NCBI GenBank assembly: GCA_016930085.1
Contig: JAFGHO010000104.1
Coordinates: 1-64,000, forward strand
From: Spirochaetales bacterium
GTDB lineage: Bacteria; Spirochaetota; Spirochaetia; SZUA-6; JAFGRV01
DNA: 64,000 nt
Reading direction: 5' to 3'
Both the position numbers and the translations under genes were made by a program. The notes beneath the pieces are model-generated. The model worked only from the letters and a program-made list of their open reading frames with translations. It was not told where the DNA came from and did not search any database. Of this stretch, positions 26,568 through 64,000 are shown piece by piece (the first letter of the stretch is position 1; every line of letters begins with the position of its first letter).

Positions 26568-26956
26568 GTACCTCATAGAATAAGAACTTCCCAGAAATAA
26601 ATCAAGTTTTTTTTTCAGTATTCGGGCCCGATACGCGCGTGCTCCCGAAGATGGACGCAGGCTATATTCAACGGAGACGATGATCCGCGGTTTTTTTCTC
26701 ATACCCGCCGGGAAAGGCCGATCGATGTGCATCGCGTCCTCTCCGATATGCATTCTGCATAGATTATGCAATGTGCATAGCACACCCCCCTCTTTCGATC
26801 CCGCTCTATTCGATCGAAATCCGCGGCCTCCTCGTATTTTCTTATCACCGAATAAGTTATATCCACCGCAAGATGTCCTGTATCGGACTGAAAAACGAGG
26901 AGTTGGCACATAAATTGCATTAATACATATGTATTCATTGCAACGGAGAAGGAAGT
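26568..26956. promoter_or_regulatory. Intergenic region with TGCAT repeats and a palindrome ahead of the biosynthetic operon
   Basis: No convincing gene. It contains five TGCAT/ATGCA half-sites (26728, 26749, 26756, 26766, 26773) and a perfect 14-bp palindrome, AATACATATGTATT (26922-26935), flanked by TTGCA and TGCAA. A ribosome binding site (GGAGAAGGA) and the first gene follow within 25 bp. This looks like the control region of the nine-gene operon. No -35/-10 pair could be fixed. Confidence 0.4.
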
Positions 26957-27940
26957 ATGTTCGGATTTATCAAGGCATATATAAAATCCATGAGACTCTA
27001 CTATTCTTTTGTGACAGGGATCGCCGGTTGGATTGGTGTTGCCTATTACGAGTTTATCGCCCATTTCCCGCCGGAGAGAACCATCGAAGTCGCACCGACA
27101 CCCGCGAAAAAGATCGTTATCCTCATCCTGCTTTTTTTAAGCTGGGGGATCAACCAGATAATTAATGATTTTCTGGGTCTCAGGGAAGACCGGATCAATG
27201 CCCCGGACCGGCCGATGGTGACCGGTGAACTGAATCCGAAGTGGGCCCTGATCGTTTCGGGAATACTGCTTCTGTTTTCGGGGTTGATTACCTGGTTCTA
27301 TCTTGAACCGTACGCCGTGGTTTTTCTCGTTCTGGGGGTACTCCTCAATGTCATCTATGAATACGCAAAAGGATACGGGATTTTAGGCAACATCGTGTTC
27401 GGCCTGATGATTACCATGGCGACCCTTTACGGGGCGTTCGCCGCAGGACCGACGGCATCGACCTTTTTGTACGCCCACAGGCTTTCCGCCCTTATTCTTG
27501 TTTTCTGCCTGAATGCGGTCATGACGTTCTATACCTATTTCAAGGATTATCGGGGCGACAAAGCGGCGGGAAAAAACACGGTGATAGTTGCCTGGGGACT
27601 CGGAAAATCGAGAATTATGGCGCTGGTTTCAGCATTTATTCCCGTGGCGGCATTCGGAATCCTGCGTTGGACCGATTTTCTTTCCATTCCCATGAACAAC
27701 GTCTTCATGACCCTGGGGTTTTTCACCGTCATCCTTCTCCTGAAAACGGGATTCCTCTATTTCCGGTATCCTTCCGGGGAAAGAACCTATGATTCACTCA
27801 AGACAAATTTCAGGGCATGCGTGTGCGGTCAGGCAACGATTATCGCCCTTTTCAATCAGCACCTGGCGATCGTGCTGTTCATCGTTTCCTTTTTCTCCGT
27901 CGGGCTGCTTTTTACACTTCACCGGAACAGGAAGGCGTAA
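26957..27940 (+). CDS. UbiA-family prenyltransferase
   Basis: A 327-residue integral membrane protein with about eight transmembrane helices. The first Mg/diphosphate motif, usually NDxxDxxxD, reads NDFLGLRED (about 74-82), with Gly at the middle Asp position; the following INAPDRPMV is well conserved. The second motif is DYRGDKAAGKNT (about 195-206). The family transfers prenyl groups to aromatic rings or lipid heads. It opens the operon, and the stop overlaps the next start as TAATG. The substrate is unknown, and the motif variation may shift specificity. Confidence 0.85.
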   Translation: MFGFIKAYIKSMRLYYSFVTGIAGWIGVAYYEFIAHFPPERTIEVAPTPAKKIVILILLFLSWGINQIINDFLGLREDRINAPDRPMVTGELNPKWALIVSGILLLFSGLITWFYLEPYAVVFLVLGVLLNVIYEYAKGYGILGNIVFGLMITMATLYGAFAAGPTASTFLYAHRLSALILVFCLNAVMTFYTYFKDYRGDKAAGKNTVIVAWGLGKSRIMALVSAFIPVAAFGILRWTDFLSIPMNNVFMTLGFFTVILLLKTGFLYFRYPSGERTYDSLKTNFRACVCGQATIIALFNQHLAIVLFIVSFFSVGLLFTLHRNRKA

Positions 27941-29160
27941 TGAAAGTATTCGAACCATGCCGCATCGGTAATATCACATTGAAAAACAGGATCGTCCGGT
28001 CCGCCACGATCATGAAATTGTGTGACGAGAAAGGTGTCCCGGGTGATGAATACCACCGCTTCCATCACGAATTGTCGCGCCGTGAAGTCGGAATGATCAT
28101 AACGGGATTTACCTTTGTCAGCAGACAGGGAAGGTCGATGCATCCGGGCCAGGCCGGGCTTGATACGGAGAAAAAGATTCCGGCATTCAAAAAAACGATA
28201 TCACTGGTGCACAGGGAGGGATGTCCGATCGTCATGCAGCTTGCGCATACGGGAAGACAGACGGTCAGGAAAATGACCGGGGCAAACGTTTTAGGTGTAT
28301 CGAAAAGAAAATCGGTTTATTTTAACGAAAAGCCGAAGGTACTCTCGACCAATGACGTCAGGCATGTGATCGGGGAGTTCGCGCGATCGGCCCTTTACGC
28401 GAAAAAGGCGGGATTTGACGGAATACAGCTTCATGCCGCCCACGGCTACCTTATCCATCAGTTTTTGCTGGCCAACATTAATGACAGAACGGACCCGTAC
28501 GGCATCGATCGGGAGACGGGTTTGGGCACGCGGTTTCTGGGCGAGGTCATCGACAATATACGCGATCTTTGCGGCGGAGATTTTCCCGTCCTGATAAAGA
28601 TAAGCGGGGCCGTTGATGATAGTGGCGAATTCGGCAGGGAACAGTTTATCCGTCTCATTCGTTTTCTGGGAAGAAAGCAGGTCGCGGCGATTGAAATAAG
28701 TTACGGAACGATGGATCGCGCCTTCAATATTTTCCGGGGAGAGAGTATCCCGACGGACACAATCTGCACATTCAATCCGCGCTACACGATAAAAAGCGGC
28801 GTCGGAAGGTACTTGTGGGGGAAATTGGCCGTTCCCGTTCTTTCGATCAAGTTTAAACCCTTTTCTCCCATGTACAATCTGCCGTACGCCGTTGTCGCGA
28901 AGCAATATACCGATATCCCCATCATCACGGTCGGGGGGTTCAGAAAGGGTGAAGAAATATCATATGCGATCGAAGAGCAGGGAATCGACTTCGTGAGTCT
29001 TTCGAGGCCTTTTCTGTGCGAGACCGATTTCGCCCAAAAGGTGAAAAACGACCGTCAATATGTTTCACGGTGCATCAATTGCAATACCTGCGCCGTGATG
29101 GTGGATTCCCCGTATCCGACAAAATGCTATGCGGGCATAGCGAAAGAGAGGAGTGTATGA
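27940..29160 (+). CDS. Old-yellow-enzyme-family NADH:flavin oxidoreductase
   Basis: 406 residues starting at ATG 27940, which overlaps the UbiA stop by 1 bp (TAATG). FMN-binding TIM barrel with QLAHTGRQT (about 100-108), GFDGIQLHAAHGYLIHQFL (about 160-178) and the phosphate-binding GGFRKGEEI (about 330). The C-terminal cysteine cluster CINCNTCAV (about 371) suggests an iron-sulphur site, as in the longer 2,4-dienoyl-CoA-reductase-like members, but without their C-terminal FAD domain. It probably reduces an enone or dienoyl intermediate in this pathway. Confidence 0.88.
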   Translation: MKVFEPCRIGNITLKNRIVRSATIMKLCDEKGVPGDEYHRFHHELSRREVGMIITGFTFVSRQGRSMHPGQAGLDTEKKIPAFKKTISLVHREGCPIVMQLAHTGRQTVRKMTGANVLGVSKRKSVYFNEKPKVLSTNDVRHVIGEFARSALYAKKAGFDGIQLHAAHGYLIHQFLLANINDRTDPYGIDRETGLGTRFLGEVIDNIRDLCGGDFPVLIKISGAVDDSGEFGREQFIRLIRFLGRKQVAAIEISYGTMDRAFNIFRGESIPTDTICTFNPRYTIKSGVGRYLWGKLAVPVLSIKFKPFSPMYNLPYAVVAKQYTDIPIITVGGFRKGEEISYAIEEQGIDFVSLSRPFLCETDFAQKVKNDRQYVSRCINCNTCAVMVDSPYPTKCYAGIAKERSV

Positions 29161-39012: not shown

Positions 39013-39149
39013 TGTGAGTGAATGAAGTAACAAAAATGATGCCCCGTCCGGGGGTCCTTGACAGGGCCGCGCGATGGTTGTACTATCGGTGTACGGGAAA
39101 AAGAGTGAAGGATACACTCGACGAAAAAACGGTAAAGGCGGCTATATTA

Positions 39150-39869
39150 ATGAAGAAAACGATTGTCGGCATCATCTCGTTCGCGCTCGTCATCGCTTTG
39201 TCCTGCTGCGATACGGGGAGCGGCGGGAACGGCGACGAACCGGATTACTATATATTCGATTCTTTTGAAAACCTAAGCGGGGGCGACATCCTCGTTGCCG
39301 AATCGAATGAGGTGTGGAAGGATATTCACGAAATCTGGGGCGGGCAGTCAGCTGCGGTCGAATCATCGGAAGCACATACGGCACACGGAAGTAAAAGTAT
39401 AAGTATCGGCATCGATCTTACGATTGTGGATGGTGGGAATAATTCCCATAATATAGGGCATGATGCGGTCATGGATACCGGGATCATTCCTTCATTCCAG
39501 TCAAAACTTAACCAGGTACGGAGTGTGGTGATCGACTATTTCTGGTCGCCGGATGAAGCTTCGACGGTTTCGGATCCTAATCAGTTAACCGTATATCTTG
39601 ATATACGGGGAGAATCGATCGGCCTTGGACGTATTGGATTGTGGGCTGGAACAGCATCGATTACGGATGCCGATACAAAGTTAATGATGGAAGTGCCCCT
39701 TGATGAAGGAGATGACCCGGCAGCTATGGACAATGCGATCAATCTATGGGTATTCCAGATATTTTTTAACGGTGACGGATCTGTTGAGGACGGACATACT
39801 CTGATCGGCGACCTCTACATCGACAACATCCGGTTCAGGGACGCAGACGGGAAGTATATCGAACCCTGA
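39150..39869 (+). CDS. Lipoprotein with a carbohydrate-binding-like beta-sandwich
   Basis: 239 residues from ATG 39150; the open frame extends 44 codons upstream to 39018, but the signal begins here (MKKTIVGIISFALVIALSCC, lipobox near residue 20). The mature part is mostly beta with motifs seen in jelly-roll modules (YYIFDSFENLSGGDI, KSISIGIDLT, LYIDNIRFRDADG). I recognise no exact family. It lies in the same direction, 137 bp after the binding protein. Confidence 0.65.
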   Translation: MKKTIVGIISFALVIALSCCDTGSGGNGDEPDYYIFDSFENLSGGDILVAESNEVWKDIHEIWGGQSAAVESSEAHTAHGSKSISIGIDLTIVDGGNNSHNIGHDAVMDTGIIPSFQSKLNQVRSVVIDYFWSPDEASTVSDPNQLTVYLDIRGESIGLGRIGLWAGTASITDADTKLMMEVPLDEGDDPAAMDNAINLWVFQIFFNGDGSVEDGHTLIGDLYIDNIRFRDADGKYIEP

Positions 39870-51481: not shown

Positions 51482-53158
51482 TTATTGACAGAATCCCTCG
51501 ATCAGGCCCACGTAATATTGGGCGATCAGCAGGGCGTCGATGATGTTGACCGACCCATTACAATCGGCATCTGCGCTTTCTTCATCGAAATTCGCCGGGT
51601 CGAGACCGACGTAGAACTGTGCCGTGAGGAGCGCGTCAACGATATCGATCGTTCCGCTTCCATTGACGTCGCCGCGTTCACCCGTGACAATGCCTGTCGG
51701 CGCGAGTGAAGGAACGACGGTTGTTTCGGGGGCCGGCGTCTCCGTCCCGGACGGGGGCGGTGACGATATTTCTCCTGACGACGCATTGAAAGAGATCGAC
51801 GCGCTCGAATGGTTGAGATACTTGTCATAGACAAAAATATCCGCGATGTGATCCCCTTCGAGATATTCGGCCGCATTCACGGTAATCGAATCGAAATTTT
51901 CCTTAATGACGGGGGTACGTAATCCGCCGTCGATGTAGACTTCCGCTTTCACCGTCTCCTGTCCCGCGGCAAGCGACATGTTCAGCATACCGTTTTCAAA
52001 CCGGGCCGAAGCGATGTCAAGCGACGGTGGTGTCGTGTCCGTTATCTGCGAACCGCCCGCCCACGGGCGGGTTCCCGCAAACTTCTTTTTCACATCCATG
52101 ACCCTGGCGCCCTTCACCGTGATGCAGGAGGCGTCGATGTTCCCGGCGGAACTCGAGTTGAGGTAGGTGAGATGGGGAACCGTACCGGGGTCCCAACCGA
52201 TCAGAAACGCCTCGACCGTATCAACCGCGACGGCGTCCGTTCCCGCCAGAATCAGCCTCATGTTCATCTGATCGGCTTCGAGGGAGAGTGTTGCTTCCGC
52301 CTGGCCCGGTCCGTTCTGAAAACCCTGGAGTCCGTCCATGACGACGAAATCGATCGGCTTGCAGAGATTCCAGTCATGGATCCATGCGTGGAGATCGGCG
52401 GAGAAATGACTTACCATATTCAACCTGAGGGGATCGTCTTCGGCGGTTCCGTAAATGTTCGCGGGCGGTCCGCCGATACCGACGTTTTTCAGCGCGCCGG
52501 TGATGCAGGCGCTCGAATGATTTTTCAGGGTGGGGACGCTGATGAGGACGTCGGCTTCGTAATATTTCCGGTTCATATAGTACGATGTATTGAGTCTTCC
52601 GTTGGGAAGCTCGACCTGCACGATACCGGGGGAATCGAAATCCTGCCAGCCGCCGCTGTCTTCCTCGATCGCGAGGATGCCGTCCGTCCCGGGAATATCG
52701 TCATGATTGTAGCGAAGCTGTTCCATGACGGGCCGTGTGGGGTACGCCGAACCCTCCATCACATATACCGTTCCGTCGGGATTGATTTCACGGACGAGTT
52801 CGACGATCGCCCGTACGACCCGGTAATCGGTCGTGATACCGTTGACTTCGGGGGGAAGTGGTCCCTCCACCGTTTCCATAATGACGAGATTCGGTTTAAT
52901 CACCACGCTGTCGCCGTTTTTCACGATCGCCTCCAGTCCGCCTGAGAGTTCGACGGCTTCTGCGACCAGCGCTTTAATGTCTGAGTACTCGAGATCGGCA
53001 GCCCGGGCTTTCCGTGCCTGAACGACCGCGACCGTCGACTGTGGAAGCTGAACGGCGCTGTATGTGCGGCTGAACATGCATATGATGATAATGGAGAGAA
53101 GACTAAAAAGGACAACCTGTTTTGTTCTCGAAACTCTTAAATCTCTTGAAACGTTCAC
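51482..53158 (-). CDS. Secreted DUF362 protein with C-terminal dockerin
   Basis: 558 residues from GTG 53158 behind AAAGGAG. An N-terminal signal/anchor (about 14-36) precedes a DUF362 domain (about 40-380: VVIKPNLVIMETVEGP, VRAIVELVREINPDGTVYVMEGS, ADVLISVPTLKNHSSACITGALKN, KPIDFVVMDGLQGFQNG). DUF362 is usually a cytoplasmic or iron-sulphur-linked domain. Next come a beta stretch and a P/T-rich linker, then a type-I-like dockerin (about 497-555) with two Ca-binding repeats (GDVNGSGTIDIVDALL and ADADCNGSVNIIDALLIAQYYVGL). The dockerin implies attachment to a cohesin protein such as the two encoded downstream. Confidence 0.85.
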   Translation of the reverse strand: MNVSRDLRVSRTKQVVLFSLLSIIIICMFSRTYSAVQLPQSTVAVVQARKARAADLEYSDIKALVAEAVELSGGLEAIVKNGDSVVIKPNLVIMETVEGPLPPEVNGITTDYRVVRAIVELVREINPDGTVYVMEGSAYPTRPVMEQLRYNHDDIPGTDGILAIEEDSGGWQDFDSPGIVQVELPNGRLNTSYYMNRKYYEADVLISVPTLKNHSSACITGALKNVGIGGPPANIYGTAEDDPLRLNMVSHFSADLHAWIHDWNLCKPIDFVVMDGLQGFQNGPGQAEATLSLEADQMNMRLILAGTDAVAVDTVEAFLIGWDPGTVPHLTYLNSSSAGNIDASCITVKGARVMDVKKKFAGTRPWAGGSQITDTTPPSLDIASARFENGMLNMSLAAGQETVKAEVYIDGGLRTPVIKENFDSITVNAAEYLEGDHIADIFVYDKYLNHSSASISFNASSGEISSPPPSGTETPAPETTVVPSLAPTGIVTGERGDVNGSGTIDIVDALLTAQFYVGLDPANFDEESADADCNGSVNIIDALLIAQYYVGLIEGFCQ

Positions 53159-53548
53159 TGTTACTCCTTTCGCTTTTTTATTATGTTTTTTTTATTCGTT
53201 TTGGCGATACAGGAAGTACCATGTCATGCATTCTTTCGTTTTTATAGTATCCCGGGAAGAAGCTTTTGTCAAGGTTGTTTTGGATCCCGCCGAAGCTTGC
53301 CGAATAACGATAAAGCCTGATTTGACAGGGGAAGGAGAATCATATATGATGAGGTAACGATAACGCAAACGGTATATGATGTTTAAAATGACTGTCCGGA
53401 TTGTATTGGATTTCACCCATTGATGCATCAGGGTTTCTCCGATGTCGTTGTACTACGATTCAACTTATAATCTTGCAATACAGCTTCCGTTGTGATATAA
53501 TTGAGTCATTTTGTTGAAACAATAAAATATTTTAAAAAGGAGAAAACA
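53159..53548. promoter_or_regulatory. Intergenic region between divergent dockerin genes, with PL11 promoter
   Basis: 390 bp without a gene. For the plus strand TTGCAA (53473-53478), 17-bp spacer and TATAAT (53496-53501) form a promoter within TTGTGATATAAT. AAAAAGGAG lies ahead of ATG 53549. TGATGCATCA, a 10-bp palindrome, lies near 53422. The minus-strand promoter could not be fixed. Confidence 0.55.
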
Positions 53549-55999
53549 ATGAAAAAAGGGAAAAATGTATTGTTGGCCGGGCTGACGATCGTCCTTCTCC
53601 TCTTCGTCGCGGGGGCGGCAGGCGCACAGCGCCAGGCGGAGAGACTCAACCGCGGACTTGTTGCTGTGTCGTCCGGGGGCGGATATTTTCTGTCCTGGCG
53701 TCTTTTCGGGGATGAATCCCTTGATACGGGATTCAATGTATATAAAGGTTCGACAAAGCTCAACTCCTCTCCGGTTACGAATGCCACCTGCTATCAGGAT
53801 GCAAGCGGGGGAAGCGGGACGTACACCGTACGGGCCGTAGTGAACGGACAGGAACAGGCGGCAAGCGAGGCCGCCAGGGTTCTTTCGACCAATTATCTCT
53901 CCATATCCGTGAATGTCCCCTCCGGGCATGAACCAAACGACGCCAGCGTCGGGGACCTCGACGGTGACGGAGAATACGAGATCGTGCTGAAGGTGGACGC
54001 GACAAACGCCAAGGACAATTCGCAGTCGGGGGTGACGGATGTGGTGTATCTCGATGCCTACAAACTCGATGGAACACGGATGTGGAGCATCAATCTGGGA
54101 AGAAACATCCGCGCCGGCGCCCATTACACCCAGTTTATGGTGTATGACCTCGACGGCGACGGGCTTGCGGAGGTCGCCTGCAAGACGGCCGACGGTACAA
54201 GGGATGGTGCCGGTAACGTCATAGGGGACGCGAACGCCAATTACGTGAACTCCGACGGTTATATTCTTTCCGGTCCGGAGTTTCTCACCGTATTCGACGG
54301 CCGGACGGGACGTGCCCTGTCCACGGTCGATTATCTGCCCGCCCGCGGGAATGTTTCCGATTGGGGAGACAGCTACGGGAACAGGGTGGACCGTTTTCTC
54401 GCGTGTATCGCCTATTGCGACGGTTCGAATCCCTCTCTGGTCATGTGCCGCGGCTATTACACGAGAACGGTGCTGGTGGCGTGGGATTTCCGGAACGGAA
54501 ACCTCTCGCACCGGTGGACCTTTGACAGCAACAGTAACACCTCGTATGCGGGACAGGGAAATCACAACCTGAGTGTCGCGGATGTGGATGGGGACGGCAG
54601 GGACGAAATCGTCTATGGATCGTGCTGTATCGACGATAACGGAACCGGCCTCTGGAACTCCCGGCTCGGACACGGCGATGCGATGCATTTGAGTGATATC
54701 GATCCGAACAGATCGGGACTGGAAGTGTGGGGTATTCATGAAGGCGACGGCACGCCCGGTTCCGCGCTGCTCGATGCGCGAAGCGGTTCGATCATATGGC
54801 AGACCGGTAACGCCGATGTGGGCCGGGGCTGCGCCGGGGACCTCACCGCATCGTATCGCGGTATGGAATGCTGGGGTGGGACGAGCGGTCTCCGTACATG
54901 CACGAACGGAAGCGCCGGAAACTCGCCCGCATCCTCCAATTTCGTCGTCTGGTGGGACGGGGACCTGCTCCGCGAACTTCTCGACGGCACATCGATCACA
55001 AAATACGGCGGCTCCACCCTTCTTTCGGCAAGCGGGTGCTCCTCGAACAATGGAACCAAATCGACACCCCGCCTTCAGGCCGATATCTGGGGCGACTGGC
55101 GGGAAGAGGTGATCTGGAAAGCGGGAAACACCCTTCGCATCTATACGACGACCGCAACGACGAACTACCGCTTTCATACTCTCATGCACGATCCCGTGTA
55201 CCGGCTCGGGATCGCCTGGCAGAACGTGGCGTACAACCAGCCGCCGCACACGAGTTATTTCCTCGGCGACGGGATGGGAACCCCTCCGCAGCCGAACATA
55301 CGGTACGCGGGCGGGGGCGCCACAAGTCCTCCGAGCGAACCGACACCGACCCCGGAACCAACCCCCACTCCCGAAGTGCTCGTACCGGGGGTAACCTACA
55401 ACCTTCAGGCGGAAAACGCTTATATGTCCAATGGAACGATCGACACGGAACATTCCGGCTATACCGGAAGCGGCTACGCGAATACCGCGAATGAATCCGG
55501 CGCTTACATCGAATGGACGGTTTCGGTAGGTTCCAACGCGGATGCGAACCTCGGATTCGTGTATGCCAATGGCGGGGACAGCGACAGGCCGTGCCGCCTT
55601 CTTATAAACGGCCAGACATGGGACGAACTCCCCTTTGCCCCTACCGGGGAGTGGACCGGTTGGTCGACCGTTTCCATGACGGTTCCCGTCTATACCGGGA
55701 CCGTTACGATCCGGTTGTCGGCTACGGGAAGTGAAGGGGCGCCCAACATCGACCGGATGGATATCACCCTGCAAAGCGGATCAGTGACAACCCCGCCCCA
55801 GGAAACAAAGGGGGATGCAAACGGGGACGGCGCGATTAATATCGTCGACGCATTGGTGACCGCCCAATATTATGTGGGATTGTCTCCAAGCCCGTTCAGT
55901 GTTACCTCAGCCGATGCAAATTGCGACGGTAATGTTAATATTGTCGATGCGTTATTAATCGCTCAGTATTACGTCGGCCTCATCGACAGGTTCTGTTAG
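53549..55999 (+). CDS. Rhamnogalacturonan lyase (PL11) with CBM35 and dockerin
   Basis: 816 residues from ATG 53549. Signal peptide (about 1-26), PL11 catalytic propeller (about 30-590: ERLNRGLVAVS, VGDLDGDGEYEIVLKVDA, TQFMVYDLDGDGLAEVACKTADGT, HLSDIDPNRSGLEVW, DIWGDWREEVIW), a P/T linker, a CBM35-like module (about 625-755: LQAENAYM, YIEWTVSVGS) and a dockerin (about 755-815: GDANGDGAINIVDALVTAQYYVGL, ADANCDGNVNIVDALLIAQYYVGL). PL11 enzymes cleave the rhamnogalacturonan I backbone of pectin by beta-elimination. Ca-binding DxDxDG loops are visible in the propeller. Ends in an intrinsic terminator. Confidence 0.92.
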   Translation: MKKGKNVLLAGLTIVLLLFVAGAAGAQRQAERLNRGLVAVSSGGGYFLSWRLFGDESLDTGFNVYKGSTKLNSSPVTNATCYQDASGGSGTYTVRAVVNGQEQAASEAARVLSTNYLSISVNVPSGHEPNDASVGDLDGDGEYEIVLKVDATNAKDNSQSGVTDVVYLDAYKLDGTRMWSINLGRNIRAGAHYTQFMVYDLDGDGLAEVACKTADGTRDGAGNVIGDANANYVNSDGYILSGPEFLTVFDGRTGRALSTVDYLPARGNVSDWGDSYGNRVDRFLACIAYCDGSNPSLVMCRGYYTRTVLVAWDFRNGNLSHRWTFDSNSNTSYAGQGNHNLSVADVDGDGRDEIVYGSCCIDDNGTGLWNSRLGHGDAMHLSDIDPNRSGLEVWGIHEGDGTPGSALLDARSGSIIWQTGNADVGRGCAGDLTASYRGMECWGGTSGLRTCTNGSAGNSPASSNFVVWWDGDLLRELLDGTSITKYGGSTLLSASGCSSNNGTKSTPRLQADIWGDWREEVIWKAGNTLRIYTTTATTNYRFHTLMHDPVYRLGIAWQNVAYNQPPHTSYFLGDGMGTPPQPNIRYAGGGATSPPSEPTPTPEPTPTPEVLVPGVTYNLQAENAYMSNGTIDTEHSGYTGSGYANTANESGAYIEWTVSVGSNADANLGFVYANGGDSDRPCRLLINGQTWDELPFAPTGEWTGWSTVSMTVPVYTGTVTIRLSATGSEGAPNIDRMDITLQSGSVTTPPQETKGDANGDGAINIVDALVTAQYYVGLSPSPFSVTSADANCDGNVNIVDALLIAQYYVGLIDRFC

Positions 56000-56030
56000 T
56001 CGATGATCGCCTGAATCGAAATGTGACACA

Positions 56031-56077
56031 CCCCCACGGATGTTCGCGAGGAGACACGGCGCCGTGGGGTTTTTTTG
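56031..56077 (+). terminator. Intrinsic terminator of the PL11 gene
   Basis: CCCCACGG (56032-56039) pairs with CCGTGGGG (56062-56069), followed by seven to eight T. Confidence 0.8.
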
Positions 56078-56233
56078 TGCGGTTGTAACCGTGATGGTAC
56101 GGCAATCGAACATGGACGGAAAAACAGGCGCGCCTTTTGAAATAAAACAAGGCGTCATATCACCGACCGAATTTCCTTTTCCGCCCTTTGAACAACCGCA
56201 TCAGAGTATGGTATAGTTCCGGTGACGACGCCC

Positions 56234-56842
56234 ATGAAAAAACATATATTCGGGTTTCATTCGGATGAAAACAAAAAAAACGTCCGGCACCGTATTCTCG
56301 ATGTCGCCGCACGGCTTTTCTACAACCAGGGGACAAAGCATACGGGGATCAATCAGATTATCGCTGAATCGAAGGTGGCAAAGGCGAGTTTTTATCAGTA
56401 TTTTCCTTCAAAGGAAGACCTGATCATCGAGTGCCTCGATATCTACAATGATACGATTACCCGCGTTATTCGAAGACTCATCGACCGCAGCAGGTCGATG
56501 CATCACTTTTTCAAACGATGGACCCGCCTGATTATGAGAAATGTGCAGAGGGAGACGGTCTTTAACGGCTGTCCCATCGCCAATATCGGATTTCAGATGG
56601 AACCCGACAATATCAGGCTCAAAGAAAAGTTCAGGGAAATTACCGGGGGCTGGCAGTCGATTATGACGGGACTTTTCGAAAAAGCCCGCAGGACCGGTGA
56701 AATTGCCGGAGATATTGAAAGCGATACCCTTTTCAGGGAAATCGTCCGGATAAACGAAGGCGCTTTTATCATGTGGCGGCTCACCGGTGACATTCACTAT
56801 ATCGAAGGAATGCTCGATTCATTCATGCGGCTTCTCGGGTAA
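56234..56842 (+). CDS. TetR/AcrR-family regulator
   Basis: 202 residues from ATG 56234 (a GTG at 56222 is in frame). N-terminal HTH: VRHRILDVAARLFYNQGTKHTGINQIIAESKVAKASFYQYFPSKEDLI (about 17-64), the classical TetR pattern; the C-terminal helical ligand domain has NGCPIANIGFQ. It is convergent with fabV, and a perfect palindrome lies in the fabV promoter, so it may repress fabV (inference). Confidence 0.88.
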   Translation: MKKHIFGFHSDENKKNVRHRILDVAARLFYNQGTKHTGINQIIAESKVAKASFYQYFPSKEDLIIECLDIYNDTITRVIRRLIDRSRSMHHFFKRWTRLIMRNVQRETVFNGCPIANIGFQMEPDNIRLKEKFREITGGWQSIMTGLFEKARRTGEIAGDIESDTLFREIVRINEGAFIMWRLTGDIHYIEGMLDSFMRLLG

Positions 56843-56931
56843 AGCTGGCGTTTGTTTATTACCGGGACCGGGACAACCCGCATGGGTAAAAACCGCTACG
56901 GTGCCGGACCTTTCCGTGTCCTCTGCTTCCA

Positions 56932-58095
56932 TTATCCGGCGGGATATAAACCGACCGGAAGAGAAAAACCGGACATGAGAAGAAAATCGGCCATAAATCC
57001 CTCCGTGTCCGCAAGCGTATGAAGGTTGTTGCCGGTCACCTGCCGCCAAAGGTCGGAGACCCTCTCCTGTACATCGGCCTGCAATTCGTAATCATCCATC
57101 CTGATCCTGTACCCTTCATCGAGGTTTACCGGGTGATTCCCGTAGAGTTTTTCCGAAAAAAGGCGGTAGATCTGGTCGATCGTGTTCTCATGAAGGCCTT
57201 TTTCTTTCATTACCTTGTAGAGAATCGCGATATAGAGGGGGACAACGGGAATCACGGCACTCGATTTCGTGACAACCGCCTTGTTCACGCTTACGTAAGC
57301 TGACCCGCGTATGGAAGAGAGAAGCCGGTTCAGACTGCGGCCCGTTGCCTCGAGATGCTTTTTTGCTTCGCCGAGTGTTCCGTTCCTGTAAAGCGGGGCG
57401 GTGAGGGGGGGGCCGATATATGAATAGGCGACCGTCACGGCGCCGGGTTCAAGCAGGTTGAATGCAAACAGCTTTTCTATCCAACCTTCCCAGTCTTCTC
57501 CTCCCATCACCTTCACCGTTCCCCTGATTTCCTCGTCCGTCGCCGGTTCGAGAATAAGTTCTTTCAAGGCCACCGTATTCAGATCGATTGTCTTGCCCCG
57601 CACGCTTTCTCCGATCGGTTTAATTACCCCCCGGTAGATTTCGGAAGTGACCGGGTCCCTTCTGACGGACGATGCGAGGCTGTAGACGACAAGATCGACC
57701 CTCGTCCTTGCGGATGAGAGATACGAACAAACCCTGTCCTTCATTTCGTGTGAAAAGGCGTCGCCGAAAAAGCTTTGATGATGAAGACCGGATTCCCCGG
57801 CGTACCGTTCGAAGGCTTCTGTCTTGTACCAGCCGGCGGTACCGTTTCGGGAACCCTCGGGCGGCCTCTCGTAAGCGACGCTCGTGGTTCCGGCCCCGCA
57901 GGAAAATGCCGAAACCAGACGGCTTGCCAGACCATACCCGGTTGAACCGCCGATAATGAGGACATGGCGGGGACCGGAAACGGGTTCTCTCCTTTTGAGG
58001 TTCTCGACGGCCACTCCGACCATGTCCCGGCACCCGTCGGGATTCACATTCAGACAGATATTCCCTTTGATTCGAGGTGTTGATTTCATCGACAT
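56932..58095 (-). CDS. fabV: FabV-type trans-2-enoyl-ACP/CoA reductase
   Basis: 387 residues, normal for FabV/TER. NAD-binding GGSTGYGLASRL (about 50-61), VVYSLASSVRRDP (about 133-145), and the Y-x8-K active-site pair YRNGTLGEAK (about 232-241). The start precedes a promoter with an internal operator. It reduces trans-2-enoyl thioesters with NADH. The C-terminus (LPVGLYPAG) is slightly shortened relative to some homologues. Confidence 0.92.
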   Translation of the reverse strand: MSMKSTPRIKGNICLNVNPDGCRDMVGVAVENLKRREPVSGPRHVLIIGGSTGYGLASRLVSAFSCGAGTTSVAYERPPEGSRNGTAGWYKTEAFERYAGESGLHHQSFFGDAFSHEMKDRVCSYLSSARTRVDLVVYSLASSVRRDPVTSEIYRGVIKPIGESVRGKTIDLNTVALKELILEPATDEEIRGTVKVMGGEDWEGWIEKLFAFNLLEPGAVTVAYSYIGPPLTAPLYRNGTLGEAKKHLEATGRSLNRLLSSIRGSAYVSVNKAVVTKSSAVIPVVPLYIAILYKVMKEKGLHENTIDQIYRLFSEKLYGNHPVNLDEGYRIRMDDYELQADVQERVSDLWRQVTGNNLHTLADTEGFMADFLLMSGFSLPVGLYPAG

Positions 58096-58119
58096 ACCCC
58101 CTTTTTGTTTGTTGATTAT

Positions 58120-58148
58120 AATATACAGACAAGTCTGTCTGTTGTCAA
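58120..58148 (-). promoter_or_regulatory. fabV promoter with operator-like palindrome
   Basis: On the minus strand TTGACA (58143-58148), 17-bp spacer, TATATT (58120-58125). The spacer holds the perfect palindrome ACAGAC-AA-GTCTGT (58125-58138), a typical position and form for a TetR-family operator. Confidence 0.65.
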
Positions 58149-58220
58149 GTGTTTTATTGGAACCCTATTGCGGGATACCGTGATCATTCACCGTTTGTCT
58201 TTTTCCGGCGGAAAAATGAG

Positions 58221-58249
58221 TCGACAATCGAATTGGATTGTGATATAAT
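58221..58249 (+). promoter_or_regulatory. Promoter of the cohesin-dockerin gene
   Basis: TCGACA (58221-58226), 17-bp spacer, TATAAT (58244-58249) in the same TTGTGATATAAT context as the PL11 promoter, with AAAGGAG before ATG 58275. Confidence 0.6.
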
Positions 58250-58274
58250 GGTATTCAAAAAAAGGAGAAATTCA

Positions 58275-59573
58275 ATGAAAAAAGTAATGATTCCCTGCTT
58301 TATCATATATTTTTTATTATATGTGATGATACCGATGTATGGGGCCTTTGATACGGAAGCGTTCGATACGGCATCGCGCTTCCCGTCCCGTCTCCTCATC
58401 CAGTACACACCGGACCCCACCGCAGTCCCGACACCCACCCCGGTGACCACGGTCGATGTGACGGTGATTGACTTCGGAACAAAAGAACCGTTATCAGGTG
58501 CGCGCGTAGAGATACGATACCATGATGGGTTTTCGACAATCGGTCATACCGCCAGTACGGGAAAACTGTCGATTACCTACTATTCGGACAGGACAATCAC
58601 GAGTGTGACCGTAAGTAAAGACGGCTATGATACCCTCGTCGCGGAAGAGATCGGCAGCGGCGTTTTCGAGCTTTCCGTGACAATACCCGATCCGGATAAT
58701 TGTTACGAGGTAAGCGGCACGGTAAGCCGCCGCGATACGGGATCGCCCCTTGAAGGCGTCGTGATTCGTCTTCGCAGTTATCATAATGAAGCGTGGGAAT
58801 ATGCGAACACCGAAACCGGTGCGTCGGGTGACTATTCCTTGACTGCGTACACCGGTAAAACGGCTATAATTCTGATCGGGAAAACCGGATACGCCCCTTA
58901 TTCGGTGGAAATCGAACCGGGAACCCATACGATCGATGTATCGCTCGAACCTGATCTTCCGGGAACAGGTGAAGTATGGGTATATCCGGCCGGGCAGACC
59001 GTTCCCCTTTACGAGCGGTTTACGATCGAGATTCACGCGAACACGGGAAACAGAAAACTCGCAGCCTATGGATTCCATGTGCGTTACAACACGAATATTC
59101 TTTCCCTGAATTTCGGTGTCGGAACGGACGGCGTGGTCGCCGGTCCAGACGGCTTTGTCTCGGCAACGGACGCAAACACACCGGGTGATAAAATAATATC
59201 GGGTTTCGATACCACTGGAACGGGGCCTGGTGAAGACATACATATCGTTACCGTCAATTTTATCGCGTTGGCGACGGGAACCTCGGATATCGACCTCATT
59301 GTCAATGATATCGTCGATCCCTTTACCTTTACCATCGGAACACCGGCCGGAACCGGCGGAAGCGTCACGGTATCGACCCCGGCTTTAGGGGATGTGAACC
59401 GGGACGGGCGGATCGGCATTGTCGACGCGCTCCTCGTTGCCCGGTGTTATGTCAGCGGGGATACCTCCATCCTGGATACGGCCCTGGCCGACGTCAATCA
59501 TGACGGCAGGATTGATATCGTCGATGCATTACGGATCGCACAGTACGATGTGGGGCTGATATCGAGGTTTTAA
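58275..59573 (+). CDS. Secreted cohesin-dockerin protein
   Basis: 432 residues from ATG 58275. A signal peptide (about 1-24) and short P/T segment precede two beta-sandwich/CarboxypepD_reg-like domains (about 55-235), then a cohesin-like domain (about 238-370: GEVWVYPAGQTVPLYERF, AAYGFHVRYNTNILSLNFG, GPDGFVSA, SGFDTTGTGPGEDIHIVTVNFIALATGTS) and a dockerin (about 375-432: GDVNRDGRIGIVDALLVAR, ADVNHDGRIDIVDALRIAQYDVGL). It could therefore link dockerin enzymes to another cohesin, as an adaptor scaffoldin. The cohesin is homologous to those of the large protein at 60676. Confidence 0.85.
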   Translation: MKKVMIPCFIIYFLLYVMIPMYGAFDTEAFDTASRFPSRLLIQYTPDPTAVPTPTPVTTVDVTVIDFGTKEPLSGARVEIRYHDGFSTIGHTASTGKLSITYYSDRTITSVTVSKDGYDTLVAEEIGSGVFELSVTIPDPDNCYEVSGTVSRRDTGSPLEGVVIRLRSYHNEAWEYANTETGASGDYSLTAYTGKTAIILIGKTGYAPYSVEIEPGTHTIDVSLEPDLPGTGEVWVYPAGQTVPLYERFTIEIHANTGNRKLAAYGFHVRYNTNILSLNFGVGTDGVVAGPDGFVSATDANTPGDKIISGFDTTGTGPGEDIHIVTVNFIALATGTSDIDLIVNDIVDPFTFTIGTPAGTGGSVTVSTPALGDVNRDGRIGIVDALLVARCYVSGDTSILDTALADVNHDGRIDIVDALRIAQYDVGLISRF

Positions 59574-59678
59574 CTATCATAAGCGGACGGCGTTCTCCTG
59601 CTGTGGTCCGGCCGCGGTACGGGATTGTCCGGTAGACGGGGATGTTTCATTATCCCCCCGATATGAGTATATTATCCC

Positions 59679-60605
59679 ATGATCCGCGCGGGACTCTGCT
59701 GTCTCTTTAAAAAGGAACCTGTCACATTCAGACAAACGACATATCGTTATCTCAGGACATTGACGCACAGGGAGCAGCGAGAACGGCTTTCACTCATCGC
59801 CCTGCATAACGCGCACGCCCTTTACGAAACCCTCTTGTACTGCCGCGATCACGGTATCGGTGATTTCAGGATCACGAGCCGTTTCCTGCCCCTTGCCACG
59901 CATCCGGCCTGCGGGTACGGCATAGAGGACCTTCCCGAATACGGAGAAATTGAACGCATCCTTTCCGAATGCCATGAATTCTCCCGCCTGCATGATATCC
60001 GGCTTACCTTTCATCCGGACCAGTTTGTCCTCCTCAACTCACCCTCACCCGACGTGACGGCCGCTTCGATCGGGGAACTCGTGTATCAGGCGGAACTGGC
60101 GGAGCGGGTCGGCGCGGATGTCATCACCCTTCACGCGGGAGGCGTCTTCGGCGACAAACCGGATGCCCTGAACCGGCTTTACGACCGGATTCCGGGACTG
60201 CCCGCCGCGGTGAAAACATATCTCGCGCTTGAAAACGACGACAGGTCCTATACGCCGGAGGATATCCTTTCGTTCTGCGAACGCCTTCAGGAACGGGGCA
60301 ACACCCGGATTCCCTTTGTCTATGACGTCCACCATCACCGCTGCCTTCCCGACGGCCTTGCTGCCACCGAGGTGACGGAACGTGCGATTGCCACATGGAA
60401 CAGGGAACCCCTATTCCATATTTCAAGTCCGATAGCGGGGTGGGGGCGGCCGGATGAAAAAAAACATCATGATTTTATCGATCCAAAAGACATCCCCGCT
60501 TCATGGCCCCGTCTGGATATTACCGTCGAGGTGGAAGCAAAGGCAAAAGAGTTTGCCGTTCTGGATTTTATTGAAAATACACGAAAAATGATCGCCTCGT
60601 TATAA
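59679..60605 (+). CDS. uvsE: UV damage endonuclease (UvsE/UvdE)
   Basis: 308 residues, normal for UvsE. TIM-barrel with FRITSRFLPLATHP (about 64-77), RLTFHPDQFVLLNSP (metal His), VITLHAGGVFGDK, ALENDD, and VYDVHHHRCLP; these hold the metal-binding His, Glu and Asp residues. It nicks DNA 5' of UV photoproducts. ATG 59679 lies 5 nt after a TATATT box, with no ribosome binding site, so the message may be leaderless. Confidence 0.92.
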   Translation: MIRAGLCCLFKKEPVTFRQTTYRYLRTLTHREQRERLSLIALHNAHALYETLLYCRDHGIGDFRITSRFLPLATHPACGYGIEDLPEYGEIERILSECHEFSRLHDIRLTFHPDQFVLLNSPSPDVTAASIGELVYQAELAERVGADVITLHAGGVFGDKPDALNRLYDRIPGLPAAVKTYLALENDDRSYTPEDILSFCERLQERGNTRIPFVYDVHHHRCLPDGLAATEVTERAIATWNREPLFHISSPIAGWGRPDEKKHHDFIDPKDIPASWPRLDITVEVEAKAKEFAVLDFIENTRKMIASL

Positions 60606-60609
60606 ACGA

Positions 60610-60643
60610 TAAAAAAAGCCATCCGGGATATTCCCGGATGGCT
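60610..60643 (-). terminator. Terminator of the scaffoldin-like gene
   Basis: AGCCATCCGGGA (60617-60628) and TCCCGGATGGCT (60632-60643) form a perfect 12-bp stem with a 3-nt loop. On the minus strand it is followed by seven T (A-run 60610-60616). It may also slow transcription of uvsE on the other strand. Confidence 0.85.
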
Positions 60644-60675
60644 CTGTCATCACTCTTTTTATTCGCGTGCTTCGA

Positions 60676-63600
60676 TTAATTGTTGACGGTGACCGTACCC
60701 GCGGTACCTGTTTCATTGCCAAAATCGGCGTAGGAGTCATCGATCAATTGATCGACAAGAATCGTGATTGAGGTTGTCCCCGCAGCCATGGCGGTCCAGT
60801 TTACTCTCAGGACATAGAGGTCTTCTCCCGGTCCGGTGCCGTTTGTGTCAAACCCGCTGATTCGGAGTATAGCATTGCCGTTGTTGACTGCGGCCACGAA
60901 GCCGTCCGGGCCCGCTTCTACTCCGTTTGTTCCGATATTCGCGTTGACACTGAGTATGACTGAATCGTATGAAAGATCGATACCGTATGCGGCCAGTCTA
61001 TGCGTACCGGCGTTCATATGGACTTCGGTGGTGAAATTATCGCCCACTGTGACACTCTGGCTTGAGGGAACGATCCATACGCCCCCGACAATGCCGGATG
61101 CATCAGGATGCTGGGTCGCTGTCGGTGCCGGTGTCGACGTCGGTGCCATTGTCGGCGCCGGAGTCGGTTCTTCCGTGGGAACCGGAGTTTCGGTCGGTAC
61201 CGGAGAGGGGCTTGGTATCACCGTTGGTTCAGGTCCTTCTACAATATTAATCGAATATGTTATGCTGTATATATTTGTTTCGATGTCATTTGCATCCGGC
61301 CCAACCAAAGCATTTAAGTCGAACGTCATAGATGTCTCTCCAATATCGACAGGTATCCAGTATATTGATACGATATGGAGATCCTCACCCGGGCCCGTCC
61401 CAATGGGATCAAAACCACTCATAACAAGCGATCCCGGATTGTTATAATTAATTGCAGACACAAACCCGTCCGGTCCTGCAAAGACACCGCTTGATTCGTG
61501 ATTTGGATCGATCGCGATCATGGAATCATCATAACGTACAGTAAACCCGAATGCGAGAAGCGGAGTTGTACCGGTATTCACATGGATTTCCGTGGCGAAA
61601 TTGGTACCAATAACGGCAGTCTGGGTCTCAGGGACTATCCATAAGTCTCCCGCATCGTGTGTCCCACCCCCCCCGCCGGGTACCGGCGTCGGTTGCGGTA
61701 CCGCCGTGGGGACGGATGTCGGGATATCAGTCGAAACCGGTGATTCGGTTACGACAGGCGGTTCAGTCGGCTCGGGTGTTTCCGTCGGTTCCGGGGTCGG
61801 CGGCTGGGTCGGCGGATCGGTTTCCTCAGGCGGCGGATCGCCCGTGATGGTAACAAGCCCGTCGATACCCAGAGGCATGCTGATTATTTTCACGCTGCTG
61901 TCGGCCAGGGTCCGTATATCGAGGTCGATCGGCGTGATCCCGCCGTACAGGGCGGTCCATTGAATCCTGCAGAAGGTGATATCTTCACTCGGGTCAAGGC
62001 CCTCGTTCGCGAATCCCGCGGTACGCAGCTGACCGGGTATACCGTAGTTTGTCGTGGTCTCGAAAATTTCCGGTTCATCGATAATGGCATCCGCGGAAAG
62101 AAGCCGGGAATCGTAGAAAACATCGATACCGTAAGCGGCAAGCCGCTGGTCGCCGCTGTTAATATGGATTTCGGTAAAAAAGGTTTCACCCTGTTCCACC
62201 GTCAATTCCGATGGAACGAACCAGACTTCACCCGAACCGGGAATCGGGCCCGGCGTGGGCGGAGGGGTCGGCGTCACTTCGGGTGTGGGCGTCGGGACCG
62301 GTGTCAGCGTTGGAACTGGTGTTTCGGTGGGTTCGGGCGGCGGTTCCCCGATGATGATGATTTCCGTGTCGATACCGATTGGAACGCCGACGTGGTTTGT
62401 CGACAGGTCGGCGAGCGTCCTTACCTCGACATCGAGGGGCGATGTTCCGCCGTAGAGGGTGTCCCATACAATGGAAACAAACGAGAGGTCCGTTCCCGGC
62501 CCCCATCCCTCGACATTGAACCCCGAAAACCGGAGTGTCCCCGGCATGTCGTAATTGACAGCCGTCGCGTAGCCGTCGGGTCCGTCAATCAGCTCGACGA
62601 CGGAAATAAGTTCGGGATCGTAGTTGATGTCGAACCCGAAAGCGCCGACGGTCTGGTCCCCGCTGTTGATATGGAGGACGGTCGTAAAGGTGCTCCCCTG
62701 GTCGACCGTTGCTGCCGGAAGTTCGAGCCATACCTCGCCCGCGCCCTCGATCGGGCCCGGTGTCGGGGCGGGGGTTTCCGTCGGGACGGGCGTGGGTTCC
62801 GGAGAGGGTGTGGCGGTCGGTATTTCCGTCGGGGTGGTCCCCTGTACGACACTGATTGAACAGGTTGCCGGTTCAGGCTGCGGGAACATTGATGTGTCGG
62901 GCGCGACCAGCATGTTGATGTAGGCGGTCACCTCCATCTCTCCCTCCGCGATCGGCATCCAGTGTATGGTTATAAGGTGGAGGTCTTCGCCCGGACCCGT
63001 TCCCGAGACATCGAACCCGTTTGCCAGGACGACGCCGGGATTGTTCACGTTGACGGAGGTAACGAAACCGTCCGCGCCGGCTTCGACGCCATTCTGGCCG
63101 ATATTCGAATAGACCGTCATCGTATCGAAATTGTAGGCGATGACCATGTCATATGCCCCTACCGCCGTTTCGCCCGAATTGAGGTGCAGTTCGATCTCGA
63201 ACGGTACGCCGGCTTCGGCGGATATGCTTTCGGGGACAAACCATACGTCACCGAGACCTGGCAGCGGTTCGGGAGTTTCAGCAGGCTCCGCCGTCGGTTC
63301 GGGCGGTAATTCGGCCATCAATCCGACATAGTATTGGGCGACGAGGAGTGCATCGATGATATTGAGCATCCCGTCGCCGTTCGCGTCGGCCTGGCCGGCG
63401 TTGTAATTGGCCGGGTTCAGACCGACGAATTGTTGCGTCATGATAAGCGCGTCCACGATGTTAATGAGGCCGTCCGCGTTAACGTCCCCCGTGACCGGGT
63501 TGGGAAAGGGTGTCGGCGACGGGGTTGGCGCGGCACCCCCGCCGGTGACGACGACATTCGCCTCGATGCTCCGGACCGCTCCGAAGTCGATTGTGTTGAC

Positions 63601-64000
63601 GTCCACCATGGTGAGTATTTCGATATACACCGGCGTCGTTCCCGTTCCCACCGCTATAAAATGGACGATGAGGAAAAGGAGATCGTCCGACGGGCCTTTA
63701 CCCGACGTGTCGAAACCGGAGACCTGGATAAGTCCTTCCACCGGCGACATGCTGCTCGCCGCGATAAAACCGTCCGGTCCCGCCTCGATGGCGCTTTCAT
63801 AATCGCCGTTCAGACTGATAACGGCGGGCGTGTAGTTGATCCGGAATGAATAAGCCGCGACTGTGGCGCTTCCGGTATTGACATGAACGGCCGCGTCGAA
63901 CTCGTCGCCGACCGAAAACGACGACGCGGGGACTTCCACCCAGACATCGCCGTCAAGCGAACCCGGTGCCGGTGGATCCGTTACGTCCGGCGGATTCGTT
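60676..64000 (-). CDS. Scaffoldin-like protein: six cohesin-like domains and an internal dockerin (partial)
   Basis: At least 1108 residues; the 5' end lies beyond the window. Order in the visible part (nt): cohesin-like 1 (63550-63960), dockerin (63315-63495; GDVNADGLINIVDALIMTQQ, ADANGDGMLNIIDALLVAQYYVGL), then cohesin-like 2 (62840-63255), 3 (62340-62740), 4 (61840-62235), 5 (61230-61650) and 6 (60676-61080), joined by P/T-rich linkers. Each cohesin-like domain starts G(E/D)VW.xP and has a GPDGF and SGFD(x)GTGPGEDLH core. The gene ends at a strong terminator. It would display up to six dockerin-bearing enzymes. It is clearly related to the cohesin of the 58275 protein. Confidence 0.85.
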   Translation of the reverse strand, partial: TNPPDVTDPPAPGSLDGDVWVEVPASSFSVGDEFDAAVHVNTGSATVAAYSFRINYTPAVISLNGDYESAIEAGPDGFIAASSMSPVEGLIQVSGFDTSGKGPSDDLLFLIVHFIAVGTGTTPVYIEILTMVDVNTIDFGAVRSIEANVVVTGGGAAPTPSPTPFPNPVTGDVNADGLINIVDALIMTQQFVGLNPANYNAGQADANGDGMLNIIDALLVAQYYVGLMAELPPEPTAEPAETPEPLPGLGDVWFVPESISAEAGVPFEIELHLNSGETAVGAYDMVIAYNFDTMTVYSNIGQNGVEAGADGFVTSVNVNNPGVVLANGFDVSGTGPGEDLHLITIHWMPIAEGEMEVTAYINMLVAPDTSMFPQPEPATCSISVVQGTTPTEIPTATPSPEPTPVPTETPAPTPGPIEGAGEVWLELPAATVDQGSTFTTVLHINSGDQTVGAFGFDINYDPELISVVELIDGPDGYATAVNYDMPGTLRFSGFNVEGWGPGTDLSFVSIVWDTLYGGTSPLDVEVRTLADLSTNHVGVPIGIDTEIIIIGEPPPEPTETPVPTLTPVPTPTPEVTPTPPPTPGPIPGSGEVWFVPSELTVEQGETFFTEIHINSGDQRLAAYGIDVFYDSRLLSADAIIDEPEIFETTTNYGIPGQLRTAGFANEGLDPSEDITFCRIQWTALYGGITPIDLDIRTLADSSVKIISMPLGIDGLVTITGDPPPEETDPPTQPPTPEPTETPEPTEPPVVTESPVSTDIPTSVPTAVPQPTPVPGGGGGTHDAGDLWIVPETQTAVIGTNFATEIHVNTGTTPLLAFGFTVRYDDSMIAIDPNHESSGVFAGPDGFVSAINYNNPGSLVMSGFDPIGTGPGEDLHIVSIYWIPVDIGETSMTFDLNALVGPDANDIETNIYSITYSINIVEGPEPTVIPSPSPVPTETPVPTEEPTPAPTMAPTSTPAPTATQHPDASGIVGGVWIVPSSQSVTVGDNFTTEVHMNAGTHRLAAYGIDLSYDSVILSVNANIGTNGVEAGPDGFVAAVNNGNAILRISGFDTNGTGPGEDLYVLRVNWTAMAAGTTSITILVDQLIDDSYADFGNETGTAGTVTVNN

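Follow-up and report, generated by a model that had tools for sequence, protein, structure and literature searches.

A probable plant-cell-wall-degrading cellulosome, putatively lipoprotein-anchored, and its primary-scaffoldin locus in an uncultured Spirochaetales lineage

The scaffoldin locus and its cohesins

The stretch of DNA analyzed here (the window, 64,000 nucleotides) comprises bases 1 to 64000 of a 73,323-base contig, JAFGHO010000104.1, from the Spirochaetales bacterium assembly GCA_016930085.1 (a draft of 135 contigs with 2% estimated contamination). From position 51482 onward it carries genes for proteins with cohesin and dockerin modules, and we consider it probable that these mark the primary-scaffoldin locus of a lipoprotein-anchored cellulosome that is spread across the genome and degrades plant cell walls in an uncultured Spirochaetales lineage. 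The initial annotation had seen in the same genes a small scaffold for pectin degradation outside the clostridial cellulosome group, an interpretation that we could support in part, as it was right in kind and far too small in scale.

The six cohesins and the internal dockerin assigned at the outset to a scaffoldin-like protein within the window were recovered by Pfam and by a local cohesin profile; Pfam gave E values of 2.7e-21 for Cohesin PF00963 (76.7 bits, cut-off 24.1) and 2.8e-10 for Dockerin_1. Extension along the contig, which had been proposed as a means of finding the N terminus and an anchor, yielded the N terminus (a signal peptide, a CBM3, a second binding module, and a seventh cohesin) but left the main scaffoldin without an anchor. 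The full protein thus has the order signal peptide, CBM3, GH115_C-like module, Coh1, Coh2, dockerin, and Coh3 to Coh7, with Pfam E values of 1.2e-14 for CBM_3 (residues 35 to 91), 4e-12 for the GH115_C-like module, 1.3e-24 for cohesin, and 4.2e-10 for dockerin. The features of the locus are as follows.

60676..64000, minus strand: window part of the primary scaffoldin (full length, 1680 amino acids; start codon at contig position 65718, outside the window)
Contig 64114-64530: one further scaffoldin cohesin (the seventh in all), beyond the window end
63538..63948, minus strand: Cohesin 2
63331..63489, minus strand: internal dockerin of the scaffoldin
62836..63249, minus strand: Cohesin 3
62341..62736, minus strand: Cohesin 4
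61834..62229, minus strand: Cohesin 5
61231..61647, minus strand: Cohesin 6
60679..61083, minus strand: Cohesin 7 (structure modeled)
58149..59573, plus strand: adaptor with a signal peptide, two CarboxypepD_reg-like stretches, one cohesin, and one dockerin
58971..59378, plus strand: adaptor cohesin (local profile E value, 4.6e-57, this row being included in the profile)
59385..59546, plus strand: adaptor dockerin (47.4 bits; Pfam E value, 3.3e-11)
53501..55999, plus strand: rhamnogalacturonan lyase PL11 (RGL11) with CBM6 and a C-terminal dockerin (55808-55969)
51482..53158, minus strand: DUF362 protein with a C-terminal type I dockerin (51515-51673), a GTG start, and a signal-like N terminus

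The predicted cohesin-dockerin adaptor also held up, its dockerin by Pfam and its cohesin by the local profile. PF00963 missed the adaptor cohesin in the Pfam scan, but the local profile, to whose construction this cohesin had contributed, matched it better than any other. As a control for chance, the local cohesin profile matched 8 of 196 real open reading frames (ORFs) and none of 196 shuffled ones, and the local dockerin profile matched 21 of 196 and none of 196, respectively.

Cohesin hidden Markov models and structure comparison, the checks on which the initial annotation had staked its cohesin assignments, were both run and did not overturn them. We modeled Cohesin 7 from a window-only alignment of seven cohesins (mean predicted local distance difference test score [pLDDT], 91.1), and the predicted fold agrees with known cohesins. 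Foldseek returned 74 PDB matches at an E value of ≤0.001, cohesins leading, the first being a cohesin in complex with a dockerin (4.3e-8). In the VIA comparison, the top 31 rows were cohesins or cohesin complexes (Z scores from 15.9 down to 12.6), with Z scores of 15.9 to 15.2 (root mean square deviation, 1.8 to 2.1 over 121 to 124 residues) against Clostridium perfringens and archaeal cohesins. The predicted fold leans toward type I rather than type II by a small margin, the best type I row having a Z score of 15.0 (1g1k), with many near 14, and the best type II row one of 13.2 (3l8q). A composite model of the adaptor cohesin and dockerin had a pLDDT of 89.3 and a predicted template modeling score of 0.70.

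The two remaining dockerin proteins of the window likewise bore out what had been read from their sequences, both in ORF position and by Pfam (DUF362, 4.2e-27, with dockerin, 4.8e-8; RGL11/PL11, 6.8e-222, with CBM6, 1.7e-11, and dockerin, 1.2e-9). The PL11 ORF was called from a TTG at 53501, and an internal ATG (MKKGKNV) is the likelier start. Beyond the window, the scaffoldin gene adjoins one for a dockerin protein that by eye has CBM3 and a GH5-like domain (contig 66075 onward), and a dockerin-serpin whose start is lost at the contig end lies in the same neighborhood. Within the window, the four genes are separated by ordinary ones (a regulator-like ORF at 56222-56842, a trans-2-enoyl-CoA reductase, and a UvdE-like endonuclease). 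A search of genome contigs with the scaffoldin protein gave 29 stretches, none of which was confirmed. Elsewhere in the window, positions 4909-6009 encode a protein resembling a ribosome hibernation factor (best NCBIfam E value, 7.3e-19, below the cut-off).

Dockerins, cohesins, and cargo across the genome

Far from being compact, the system extends through the genome under study (G000; contigs are given C numbers): PF00404 had 148 matches, distributed over 147 ORFs and 66 of the 135 contigs. After extension of 34 ORFs, 65 had the dockerin at the N terminus, 70 at the C terminus, and 12 elsewhere. Calcium-loop repeats were present, and a strict two-repeat pattern was found in 77 of the 147; among these 77, positions 10 and 11 read IV in 67 first repeats and in 67 second repeats. 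This uniformity suggests one shared dockerin specificity with two equivalent binding faces. Against PDB sequences, the dockerin gave 18 matches, the best being the dockerin of a GH48 enzyme (1.6e-8).

PF00963 found just 5 cohesins in G000 because the cohesins of this genome are divergent, whereas the local profile, built from 9 local cohesins, found 33 (31 of them placed in 22 ORFs, 10 also dockerin bearing). Some cohesins sit on enzymes, as in a protein with a xylanase-like N terminus, a cohesin, and a dockerin and in a subtilase with a CBM3-like stretch, a cohesin, and a dockerin. At contig ends C120 and C8 (L185:2069-3040 and L245:2075-3715), two proteins with similar starts followed by a cohesin are both cut by the contig end; they probably represent another type of scaffoldin, interrupted at repeats, and CBM64 was confirmed in the one on C120 (4.7e-19). 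On C129 (L196:2-1777), Cadherin/Big_9-like repeats precede two cohesins in a protein whose start is lost at the contig end. C48 (L045:6631-9315) encodes a secreted protein of 895 amino acids that by eye resembles a lipase; its two dockerin-like matches (C48:38829-38990 and 39033-39212; 26.8 and 25.4 bits) score low and are unlike the uniform enzyme dockerins.

The cargo scan covered 137 dockerin ORFs, in sets of 65, 41, and 31, with counts taken among the 25 top families listed per set; of the 147, 8 short ORFs, the GH5-like neighbor, and the scaffoldin stood outside it. Dockerin_1 was found in 131 of the 137 at an E value of ≤1e-5. Many dockerin ORFs carried glycoside hydrolase (GH), polysaccharide lyase, or esterase domains: GH5 in 15, GH9 in 11, GH43 in 5, GH12 in 4, GH45 and GH16 in 3 each, GH6, GH10, GH11, and GH3 in 2 each, and GH26 and GH44 in 1 each, together with Pectate_lyase_4 in 2, RGL11 in 1, and subtilase in 1. 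CBM3 was present in 9 of the 31 ORFs of the third set. Ten dockerin ORFs scanned in detail agreed with this picture (e.g., GH9-CBM3-dockerin, GH3-dockerin, and a glucuronyl esterase with CBM60). The proposed role in pectin degradation was therefore not sustained, the cargo being mostly cellulose and hemicellulose enzymes with few pectin lyases among the families listed. Five dockerin ORFs encode serpins (PF00079), which have a parallel in the serpins of clostridial cellulosomes; all five are in the set of 65, which also includes the dockerin-serpin next to the scaffoldin.

Anchoring, export, and competing explanations

The general defining features of a cellulosome for which we looked are present in this genome, and the clostridial wall anchors were not found. 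SLH domains were absent from all five family genomes (G000 and its same-family relatives G001 to G004), with 4 of 14 control genomes positive, and no sortase was found in G000 or G003, with 3 of 14 control genomes positive. By eye, six cohesin-only ORFs of G000 have a signal with a lipobox-like cysteine, namely, those on C117 (174 amino acids), C56 (a tandem pair of 222 and 180 amino acids), C82 (223 amino acids), C124 (456 amino acids), and C20 (start uncertain). In the relatives, a lipobox-type signal was seen by eye in 7 of 10 distinct short cohesin ORFs, which were picked for shortness, so that the fraction is not a rate (G002 C140, C377, and C43; G003 C297, a tandem pair, and C159; G004 C605). 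The lipoprotein-type signals make these proteins a candidate anchor replacing SLH domains and sortase, in which the cohesins would face outward. Eight cohesin lipoproteins received no informative name from curated NCBIfam models. The idea that anchoring cohesins form a class of their own was not supported: in a 79-row tree, the cohesins of scaffoldins, adaptors, and lipoproteins are intermingled (7 changes of the LIPO label); the tree has few columns, many open forks, and bootstrap values that have not settled, and its labels are imperfect (G000_C124 rows, with three domains counted, are in SCAF, and G000_C56_20717 and C20 are in OTHER).

As a route across the outer membrane, type II secretion is the likely candidate. 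Contig C57 of G000 has a cluster with a secretin, T2SSE (1.7e-126), T2SSF (3.6e-45), T2SSG (5.1e-19), an N_methyl pseudopilin, and a prepilin peptidase, and it also carries a GH9-dockerin gene; from this gene content, we infer that type II machinery may export the cellulosome parts.

In the mechanism that we propose, secreted enzymes, binding proteins, and serpins, each carrying a type I dockerin at its N or C terminus, would plug into the cohesins of the CBM3-bearing scaffoldin, which would hold the complex on cellulose; the mutual binding of these cohesins and dockerins is predicted from their sequences. Branching would arise through the internal dockerin of the scaffoldin, the single-cohesin adaptors, and the enzymes with both modules, and small cohesin lipoproteins would tether the complexes to the cell in place of Gram-positive SLH or sortase anchors. 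With limited confidence, we favor the fullest version of this model, in which a lignocellulose cellulosome of about 150 dockerins, exported by type II secretion and of one shared specificity, would be held on the surface of a diderm spirochete by single-cohesin lipoproteins, independently of Gram-positive wall anchoring, and would use GH6, GH12, and GH45 where clostridia use GH48.

Several observations weigh against this explanation. An automated lipobox rule applied to ORFs with a signal picked 5 of 7 cohesin-only and 10 of 113 dockerin-only ORFs (P = 0.0003), but it was written post hoc, after the sequences were known, one of its five picks (on C8) resembles a conventional signal peptide, and it misses two proteins counted by eye. 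G001, G002, and G004 each have one sortase, and G001, although of the same family, has no cohesin and only one dockerin. The NCBIfam model for GspD stayed below its cut-off in all five genomes, and so the neighborhood of the secretin was read instead. GH48 (PF02011) was found in none of the five genomes, although the control genomes gave no match either. The local cohesin profile matched no PDB sequence at an E value of ≤0.01, and homology to known cohesins therefore rests on PF00963 and the fold. Finally, the genomes are draft assemblies in many contigs.

It is unlikely, though worth serious consideration, that a real cohesin-dockerin system is mostly free in the medium on cellulose, untethered, with the cohesin lipoproteins periplasmic and doing another job. 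The absence of an anchor on the main scaffoldin fits such a system, as does an open frame on C48 (about 25992-28352; L220:2486-4846, minus strand) that encodes the TRAP transporter domains DctQ (3.6e-15) and DctM (2.1e-76) and ends in a C-terminal cohesin (local profile E value, 3.7e-24); this cohesin is apparently fused to an inner-membrane transporter, which would place at least one cohesin at the inner membrane. Against it stand the several cohesin lipoproteins, one ortholog group of which (C56, C117, G002 C140, and G004 C605; fork 91/80, inner fork 99/85) is common to three genomes, and the fact that those on C56 and C117 adjoin dockerin genes in G000. Much less probable is a role unrelated to fiber, whether in adhesion, in a coat, or in the degradation of proteins, the role proposed for the planctosome discussed below: dockerins do occur on serpins and on leucine-rich-repeat, DUF362, subtilase, and peptidyl-arginine-deiminase-like proteins, but the scaffoldin bears a CBM3, and the 137 scanned ORFs include 15 with GH5, 11 with GH9, 4 with GH12, 3 with GH45, and 2 with GH6.

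Host lineage and comparison with known systems

The host of the tethered cellulosome that we propose is a Spirochaetales bacterium, as judged from RpoB. For the N-terminal half of RpoB, the best Spirochaetales assemblies were 85, 84, 79, and 77% identical (best 80 of 502 relatives), and all of the relatives among the matches listed had spirochete titles except one labeled Endomicrobiales (82% identity). The latter, JAFGIL010000062.1 (L069), is a 3.3-kb contig that is probably misplaced. C107 holds RpoB together with GH9-CBM3-dockerin and GH43-dockerin genes, and third-position G+C was 63.0 in dockerin ORFs (standard deviation, 6.6; n = 138), compared with 56.9 in RpoB and 67.0 in GspD; the linkage and the similar codon-position composition argue against misbinning. 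The possibility that clostridial cellulosome contigs were binned into a spirochete genome, to which a draft of 135 contigs with some estimated contamination lends itself, is accordingly very remote and largely refuted by this linkage, the more so as dockerin ORFs lie on 66 of the contigs, the same system is present in three other assemblies, and no PDB cohesin is close.

Three of the four same-family genomes (G002, G003, and G004) have the same system. Their scaffoldins share its layout, with a signal, a start resembling CBM3, cohesins, and an internal dockerin, and CBM3 was confirmed in both of the relatives' scaffoldins that were scanned. Among 61 genomes of the family, order, and class, PF00963 was found in 5 and PF00404 in 8, of which four were rich (at least 87 matches each) and four had one each. 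With the local cohesin profile run on 10 genomes, we found 33 cohesins in G000, 26 in G002, 47 in G003, 67 in G004, and none in G001 and five others; none were found in eight further named genomes. The assemblies with 67, 26, 47, and 0 cohesins (L067, L068, L070, and L071) are all labeled Zod or ZodW. In a sample of 392 Spirochaetota genomes from the whole phylum, PF00963 at 1e-4 had matches in 4, G000 included, and the other three (G374, G074, and G097) had one or two matches each. In G097 (C88 and C45; L310 and L313), the matches lie inside open frames of more than 5,300 codons. These counts indicate that, as far as tested, the system is confined to one family. The dockerin counts, RpoB, the local profile, and the fold support the initial placement of a cohesin-dockerin scaffold in a spirochete, outside the clostridial group.

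The complex cellulosomes of Bacillota, of the Acetivibrio thermocellus CipA type, share with the present system a CBM3-bearing primary scaffoldin, many type I-like cohesins, adaptors, dockerin serpins, and dockerin-borne GH5, GH9, GH10, GH11, and GH43, whereas here the host is a diderm spirochete with no SLH found, no sortase in G000, and cohesin lipoproteins instead; GH48 was not found, GH6, GH12, and GH45 are present, and about half of the dockerins are N-terminal. Spirochaeta thermophila is a cellulolytic spirochete with free cellulases, for which we know of no cellulosome; it has in common with our system the CBM64 module, here on a cohesin protein.

The complex of "Ca. Stygibacter" (Cloacimonadota), proposed to act on starch, chitin, and protein, is likewise non-Bacillota, with a tandem-cohesin scaffoldin-like protein carrying CBM2/CBM3 and with dockerin enzymes, but it is reported for a few enzymes (GH18, GH57, and peptidases) and its attachment is by a conserved C-terminal domain (PMC8542988). 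The "planctosome" of freshwater Planctomycetes likewise belongs to a diderm and has an anchor and an adaptor of the cohesin-dockerin kind, and it differs in its peptidases, its lamin-tail-domain anchor, and the lack of a cellulose role (PMC6461901). Since complexes have already been proposed in these two phyla, it would be wrong to call ours the first in a diderm. Paenibacillus guangzhouensis scaffoldins also include many single cohesin-dockerin adaptors, some of them enzyme linked, but the organism is Gram positive, with SLH anchors and nearly all of its dockerins inside cohesin proteins (PMC11557425). The same source, a 2024 survey of 305,693 RefSeq genomes that excluded metagenome-based sequences, lists GH48 as frequent in cellulosomes and reports 33 cellulosome species, most of them in Acetivibrio, Ruminococcus, Ruminiclostridium, and Clostridium; its text contains no "Spirochaet," "gram-negative," or "lipoprotein" (PMC11557425). 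Among other papers, a 2025 review covers sortase and SLH anchoring with no occurrence of "Spirochaet" or "lipoprotein" (PMC12484212), the Zodletone paper contains neither "cellulos" nor "cohesin" (PMC9040765), and two Spirochaetes rows of a camel-rumen paper show 0 dockerins and 0 cohesins. Searches of open-licence papers in PubMed Central did not contradict the view that this would be the first large lignocellulolytic cellulosome in Spirochaetota.

Nearly all of the cellulosomes described so far come from Gram-positive Bacillota. A spirochete cellulosome with 147 dockerin ORFs would mean that an outer membrane is no bar to a large one, and the cohesin lipoproteins offer a candidate solution to its anchoring. 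Its cohesin-dockerin set, which by the cohesin profile has no close solved relative, may also be useful for designed complexes.

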